Positions 13,896 to 53,374 of a stretch of 64,000 nt of DNA are shown here, one piece after another. Origin of the DNA: Diphasiastrum complanatum (Eukaryota; Streptophyta; Lycopodiopsida; Lycopodiales; Lycopodiaceae); the NCBI GenBank assembly GCA_029204225.1, contig CM055109.1:5151053-5215052 (forward strand). Direction: 5' to 3'. Positions within the stretch are counted from its first letter, which is position 1, and each line of letters begins with the position of its first letter. The notes under the pieces were generated by a model. The model ran no database searches. It was not told the origin of the DNA and was given only the letters and a program-made list of their open reading frames with translations. The position numbers were made by a program, and so were the translations under genes.

Positions 13896-13986
13896 CTACA
13901 ATAATGTATTTGATTTCTTTGATATCAAATCACATATTTTCTTGTGATTTTGCCAACTTGACACTTGACAAGTTCTTCCACAATAC
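13896..13986 (-). CDS. ZMYND10: ZMYND10-like terminal exon (second half of MYND finger)
   Basis: Acceptor ATCCAG at 13987-13992. The first G completes the Trp codon split by the intron. It reads [18 protein letters not shown], then eleven residues and a TAG stop at 13898-13896. It supplies zinc ligands five to eight (C-x3-C-x7-H-x3-C). Ending about a dozen residues after the finger matches ZMYND10, whose MYND domain is C-terminal. Confidence 0.92.

Positions 13987-53374: not shown

Follow-up and report, generated by a model that had tools for sequence, protein, structure and literature searches.

ZMYND10, for which DNAAF7 is an alias (PMC8754002), has been studied in animals and in Chlamydomonas. 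The consulted part of a study on mouse and human cells describes the protein as working with FKBP8 and HSP90 on axonemal dynein heavy chains, with LRRC6 weakening the FKBP8 contact (PMC6044906), and the consulted part of a second report gives an increase of about 29-fold for Chlamydomonas ZMYND10 in ciliogenesis (PMC3689809). Here we analyze a stretch of 64,000 nucleotides (C18:5151053-5215052, hereafter the window) from an assembly of 1,744,706,496 bases in 5176 contigs. Its minus strand very probably carries the 3' part of an intact ZMYND10 gene from a land plant with flagellate sperm, probably a clubmoss, acting through the mechanism set out further below.

Among described relatives, ZMYND10 of Sphagnum (P0121), Physcomitrium (P0122) and Marchantia (P0123) resembles the window gene in near-full-length homology (52-55% identity) and in the MYND finger. 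The window gene extends over 165 kb with introns of up to 36 kb. Animal ZMYND10 (squirrel P0001; human MYND-finger structures 2D8Q and 2DAN) likewise combines a C-terminal MYND finger with a homologous body, at 33% identity for squirrel. Action on outer-arm heavy chains has been shown for the animal protein in the consulted part of PMC6044906, whereas only inner-arm-like heavy chains were found here. Intron positions 13/14, 14/15 and 16/17 and the equivalent of W423 are common to the animal and the window gene, whereas mammalian isoforms skip as a single unit a stretch that holds the window gene's intron 15/16. With regard to gene length, the comparison is with KIF3A, a flagellar-transport protein. 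The KIF3A gene of Cycas spans 2.1 Mb, and Cycas introns contain much unknown sequence, according to the consulted part of PMC9023351. Both are flagellar genes inflated by very long introns in plants with swimming sperm, but Cycas KIF3A is far longer, and the window gene has retrotransposon pieces in the three introns with Pfam hits. Because very long plant genes are thus already known, the locus is placed in a known family: it is a new, very long ZMYND10 and not a new kind of system.

Exons 13 to 20 of the gene lie collinearly on the minus strand of the window at 13896..53374 and measure 78, 90, 63, 75, 43, 107, 77 and 91 bp. The seven introns joining them all have GT-AG borders and consistent phases, and the spliced exons encode the C-terminal 207 residues of ZMYND10/DNAAF7, including a complete MYND finger and the stop codon. 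The features are given below in window coordinates; matches refer to ten ZMYND10 queries, of which eight come from named green-lineage sources (one Ceratopteris gene being represented by two isoforms) and two are further rows.

53297..53374, minus strand: exon 13, 78 bp, phase 0 to 0, 26 amino acids (aa); acceptor ..GAATGTAG, donor GTAAGA; matched by 10/10 queries, best E 3.5e-6
49015..49104, minus strand: exon 14, 90 bp, phase 0 to 0, 30 aa; 10/10 queries, best E 8.7e-8
30536..30598, minus strand: exon 15, 63 bp, phase 0 to 0, 21 aa; 9/10 queries, best E 4.2e-5; borders GCAG and GTAAAA
30263..30337, minus strand: exon 16, 75 bp, phase 0 to 0, 25 aa; weak by tblastn alone, 1/10 queries, E 5.6
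24620..24662, minus strand: exon 17, 43 bp, phase 0 to 1, 14 aa; 4/10 queries, best E 0.17; borders GACAG and GTAAGA
23418..23524, minus strand: exon 18, 107 bp, phase 1 to 0, (D) plus 35 aa; 7/10 queries, best E 0.01; borders CACAG and GTGTCT
14121..14197, minus strand: exon 19, 77 bp, phase 0 to 2, 25 aa plus (W), first part of the MYND finger; 10/10 queries, best E 8.5e-10; donor GTAAGT
13896..13986, minus strand: exon 20, 91 bp, remaining MYND finger and tail, 29 aa; TAG stop at 13898-13896; 10/10 queries, best E 1.2e-5
Within 13896..53374, minus strand: introns 13 to 19, 4192, 18416, 198, 5600, 1095, 9220 and 134 bp

The first-pass annotation, made from the window alone, had described eight minus-strand exons of 43-107 bp with GT-AG borders and matching phases, absent from gene-sized open reading frames (ORFs), which read as the C-terminal half of ZMYND10 and end in a complete MYND finger and a stop. 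The exon lengths and the outer ends at 13896 and 53374 were recovered exactly, borders and phases hold for all seven introns, and no ORF of at least 150 aa in the window covers any of exons 13-20. The finger, followed by the TAG, contains all C7H ligands and matches Pfam zf-MYND with 38.8 bits, the profile comparison that had been suggested; the BLASTP comparison suggested alongside it matches the 207 spliced residues to ZMYND10 proteins among 13 homologs with E down to 1e-76. The assignment to ZMYND10 also holds over the full reconstructed length, where identity is 30% for the insect homolog and 33-55% for the remaining 12. The description is extended in one respect: the window holds eight of 20 exons, and the other 12 lie outside it.

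A first query, covering the C-terminal region of a ZMYND10 sequence taken to be human, aligned to the minus strand of the window at five collinear places, 53350-53294 (E 0.012), 49101-49012 (0.003), 30604-30539 (0.35), 14188-14120 (3.7e-5) and 13985-13917 (0.001). Exons 16, 17 and 18 (30337-30263, 24662-24620 and 23524-23418) were located only after plant homologs were used. Upstream of the minus-strand gene, 200 kb past the right end of the window were added, so that 264 kb were searched in all. N-terminal exons were found in order, with squirrel ZMYND10 as the query at first and then with the ten queries, mostly green-lineage, while exons 1 and 9 were obtained by splice- and phase-constrained scans. 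Three other candidates were set aside: 25704-25648 (WNTIATQQ..), proposed as a middle exon, adjoins a Copia-like integrase fragment; 18152-18068 lies on the strand opposite a Copia-like gag-pre-integrase frame (both fragments named by reading the translation); and one at 157835 (FELSLVTMSILRF) breaks the exon order and falls within a reverse-transcriptase-like frame.

The full model comprises 20 exons of 43-114 bp and 19 introns, all of them GT-AG, and yields 1395 nucleotides with the stop codon, i.e., 464 aa with no internal stop. The gene spans 164,577 bp (C18:5164948-5329524, minus strand), or 178472 to 13896 when the window numbering is continued; intron 12 fills the rest of the window past exon 13, and the gene runs on beyond the window to 178472. 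Its introns sum to 163,182 bp with a median of 5478, six of the 19 exceed 10 kb and the largest measures 36,342 bp. Fifteen introns are in phase 0, two in phase 1 and two in phase 2.

In BLASTP, the 464-aa product aligns with all 13 homologs, which were chosen among those found by protein searches, over 383-458 columns and with E values from 9e-65 to 4e-178. Identity is 55% to Sphagnum, 53% to Physcomitrium, 52% to Marchantia (a row that its source names ZMYND10), 52% to Calypogeia, 46% and 43% to two Ceratopteris isoforms, and 46% and 39% to two further rows. The rows coded Chlat (47%) and Mesvir (45%) are, we presume, from Chlorokybus and Mesostigma. More distant are opossum (34%), squirrel (33%, 446 columns) and insect (30%). 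All seven cysteine ligands and the one histidine of the MYND finger (C7H) are present, and a PDB search with the finger ranks human ZMYND10 first (2D8Q with 42.9 bits, 2DAN with 40.4 bits), the next family reaching 25.2 bits. Trp446, the equivalent of W423, is invariant in 14 of 14 rows; W423 was mutated in the ZMYND10 chaperone study, as stated in its consulted part (PMC6044906). A tree of 14 ZMYND10-like rows, from which other MYND families were left out, puts the product within the land-plant clade (98/95) and outside mosses and liverworts, its position relative to Ceratopteris not being resolved. When the window exons and five N-terminal exons were used for a protein search, the best of 22 database matches was 59% identical, so that, over the range of protein lengths searched, the database does not contain the product of this gene; window exons placed behind human filler gave nothing at E<=0.001 among 32 candidates.

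Intron positions offer partly independent support for the identity, as far as can be judged from annotated isoforms. Boundaries 13/14, 14/15 and 16/17 coincide with junctions in four of the ten isoforms examined, those of P0090, P0093 and P0115 having been placed by eye. The mammalian isoforms P0032 and P0090 join residues at boundaries 14/15 and 16/17 and P0084 at 13/14 and 14/15, both ends of exon 14 thus lying at positions of mammalian exon-skip junctions; in Ceratopteris, isoform P0130 connects 14/15 with 16/17 and shows zero mismatches against P0126. Junctions of P0112 and P0125 are ambiguous and P0006 is uninformative. As a separate observation, the annotated isoforms P0126 and P0130 (Ceratopteris) and P0125 (Sphagnum) omit all or part of the equivalent of exons 15-16, like some mammalian isoforms, which may reflect real alternative splicing or annotation error.

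At E<=0.001, the ten queries gave 59 minus-strand matches in the 264 kb, and 59/59 fall on the 20 model exons, a figure that is partly so by construction because the same queries helped find the exons. Independent controls at this threshold and over the same 264 kb gave 0 plus-strand matches and 0 matches with reversed queries. At E<=1, there were 122 minus-strand matches, 120 of them on exons, and four plus-strand matches, compared with seven minus- and two plus-strand matches for reversed queries. For 17 of the 20 exons, the best individual E is under 0.3. Constrained scans, run over the two strands of the 264 kb and compared without shorter and longer readings of the same exon, gave exon 16 a score of 33.8, where the top unrelated candidate reached 10.0; the corresponding pairs are 36.4 and 15.0 for exon 17, 24.6 and 9.5 for exon 9, and 20.4 and 8.3 for exon 1. 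Exons 1, 9, 16 and 17 thus stand clear of unrelated candidates.

The proposed function was set against the dynein complement of the same genome. A Pfam Dynein_heavy scan of the 1.74 Gb, which works exon by exon on the best candidates and in which 17/17 first-look candidates were scored, gave 11 matches at seven loci (on C7, C1, C9, C16 and C6) and on C2258, an equal-scoring copy of the one on C9. The closest chains at the seven loci were the following.

Dynein locus 1 of 7: DNAH7, then DNAH3 and DNAH12, 137 bits; best outer-arm-named chain 80
Dynein locus 2 of 7: Chlamydomonas chain, then DNAH10, 215 bits; best outer-arm-named chain 84
Dynein locus 3 of 7: Chlamydomonas chain, then DNAH7 and DNAH1, 165 bits; best outer-arm-named chain 74
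Dynein locus 4 of 7: DNAH12, then DNAH3, 119 bits; best outer-arm-named chain DNAH5, 54
Dynein locus 5 of 7: Chlamydomonas chain, then DNAH12 and DNAH7, 82 bits; best outer-arm-named chain 40
Dynein locus 6 of 7: I1 beta chain, 85 bits; best outer-arm-named chain 44
Dynein locus 7 of 7: DHC2, then DNAH1, 85 bits; best outer-arm-named chain 32

Judged by one exon each, seven of seven loci are nearest to inner-arm chains, both I1 chains apparently among them, and no outer-arm or dynein-2 chain is the best match for any of the seven. The inner-arm status of the matched chains and the Chlamydomonas origin of the 8GLV rows are partly our assumption, several PDB rows being generically or oddly labelled. 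These results suggest that outer-arm chains are absent from the genome; absence is suggested and not proven because the scan works exon by exon and on the best candidates only. In the consulted part of a review, moss and fern are listed without outer-arm dynein (PMC4415241). The first-pass annotation had also concluded from ZMYND10 that the plant makes flagellate sperm. This is borne out by the seven axonemal-type loci and now appears well supported, because the ZMYND10 identity extends over the full length and is accompanied by seven inner-arm-like heavy-chain loci. Among the lineages which that annotation listed as possible sources (cycads, Ginkgo, ferns, lycophytes or bryophytes), a lycophyte is the probable one.

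Several points weigh against an intact ZMYND10 gene with the function proposed here. The splicing of the 20-exon model is deduced from sequence alone, and client and partner interactions are carried over from animals. The exon 14 donor, GTTGAT, is weak, and exons 1, 9 and 16 are weak in direct search (best E 9.6, 4.6 and 5.6) and rest on the constrained scans. A site mutated in patients, human position 379, is not conserved, its equivalent here being Ile403, and N-terminal-half junctions of P0058, P0115 and P0093 lie off this gene's introns. The dynein type, finally, was judged per locus from one exon (or open piece) of 52-114 aa against the PDB.

Exons 13, 14, 15, 19 and 20, joined into a query of 132 residues and searched against the whole genome with 22/22 first-look candidates scored, matched the C18 locus, a 44.8-kb contig, C3208 (exons 15, 19 and 20), two lone copies of exon 13 on C15 and, weakly, other MYND genes. 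C3208 is 98.9-99.8% identical to the window in the aligned stretches compared, with exons 15-20 identical, and we interpret this contig as the alternative haplotype. A stretch of about 3.8 kb in intron 16 (window about 25086-28920), containing Copia-like pieces by reading, is present on C18 and absent from C3208, which may reflect either an insertion or a deletion; no direct-repeat pair was found inside this stretch. In the C15 copies, about 390 bp around exon 13, including intron flanks, are 82% identical to the window, and exon 13 itself differs at 8/78 bases and 6/26 residues; no other ZMYND10 exons occur within the 3 kb examined. A 3.1-kb stretch occurs twice there (C15:41844545 and C15:46833296), in opposite orientation and with 99.8% identity between the two. 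A Pfam scan covering 10 of the 23 long ORFs of the window identified five retroelement-hit ORFs inside the gene, four antisense (two each in introns 18 and 14) and one sense (intron 12), and retrotransposon pieces are present in all three of these introns.

18573-19817: retroelement-hit ORFs in intron 18 (Pfam)
40512-42369: retroelement-hit ORFs in intron 14 (Pfam)
54904-55428: retroelement-hit ORF in intron 12 (Pfam)

These retrotransposon pieces, the 3.8 kb of intron 16 found in one haplotype only and the single-exon copies of exon 13 elsewhere in the genome speak for the rival view that the exons are relics of a dead ZMYND10 pseudogene split by transposons. Yet the gene looks intact, with 20/20 exons open and in phase, 19/19 GT-AG introns, a start and a stop. 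Invariant residues such as the zinc ligands and W446 are retained, exons 15-20 are identical in the second contig, and the search with the 132-residue join revealed no locus with more than one ZMYND10 exon besides C18 and C3208. We therefore regard a pseudogene as very improbable.

Alternatively, the gene could be intact and its product could serve another role in the plant, unconnected to dynein. MYND proteins bind many partners, the equivalent of human position 379 is not conserved, and the literature searched contained no functional ZMYND10 study in land plants or Marchantia. Inner-arm-like dynein genes are, however, present in the same genome, the increase of Chlamydomonas ZMYND10 in ciliogenesis lowers the odds slightly further, and a role apart from dynein seems highly unlikely to us. 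That the eight fragments are a chance assembly or part of another MYND-domain protein is contradicted by the full-length alignment, in which homology covers the whole protein beyond the finger, and by the lack of plus-strand and reversed-query matches at E<=0.001, and can practically be dismissed even though MYND fingers are common in the genome (27 among the matches listed).

An intact ZMYND10 gene acting on axonemal dyneins thus remains the best explanation. A 165-kb transcript would be spliced through 19 introns in developing male gametes, and the protein would act in the cytoplasm as an HSP90 co-chaperone adaptor, its partners in animals being FKBP8 and, later, LRRC6/DNAAF11. There it would mature the heavy chains of axonemal dyneins ahead of their entry into the flagellum. 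The same biochemical role as in animals is likely because the body of the protein, the MYND finger and Trp446 are conserved. In this plant the clients are probably inner-arm heavy chains, given that all seven dynein heavy-chain loci have inner-arm chains as their nearest matches. A broader proposal, on which we are evenly divided, is that in land plants with swimming sperm ZMYND10 is a chaperone adaptor for inner-arm dyneins only, outer arms having been lost and ZMYND10 kept; its indispensable clients would therefore be inner-arm heavy chains. If this is true, what survives in this clubmoss is a ZMYND10 gene of 20 exons and 165 kb, and the searched database does not contain its protein.

With its 464 codons scattered in 20 exons of 43-114 bp over 165 kb, the gene illustrates that a conserved ciliary gene can escape ORF-based reading and perhaps annotation. 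Claims that flagellar genes are absent from large plant genomes therefore need spliced, profile-based searches. Finding only inner-arm-like heavy chains in the genome, moreover, raises a testable question, namely which dyneins are served by ZMYND10 where outer arms are missing.
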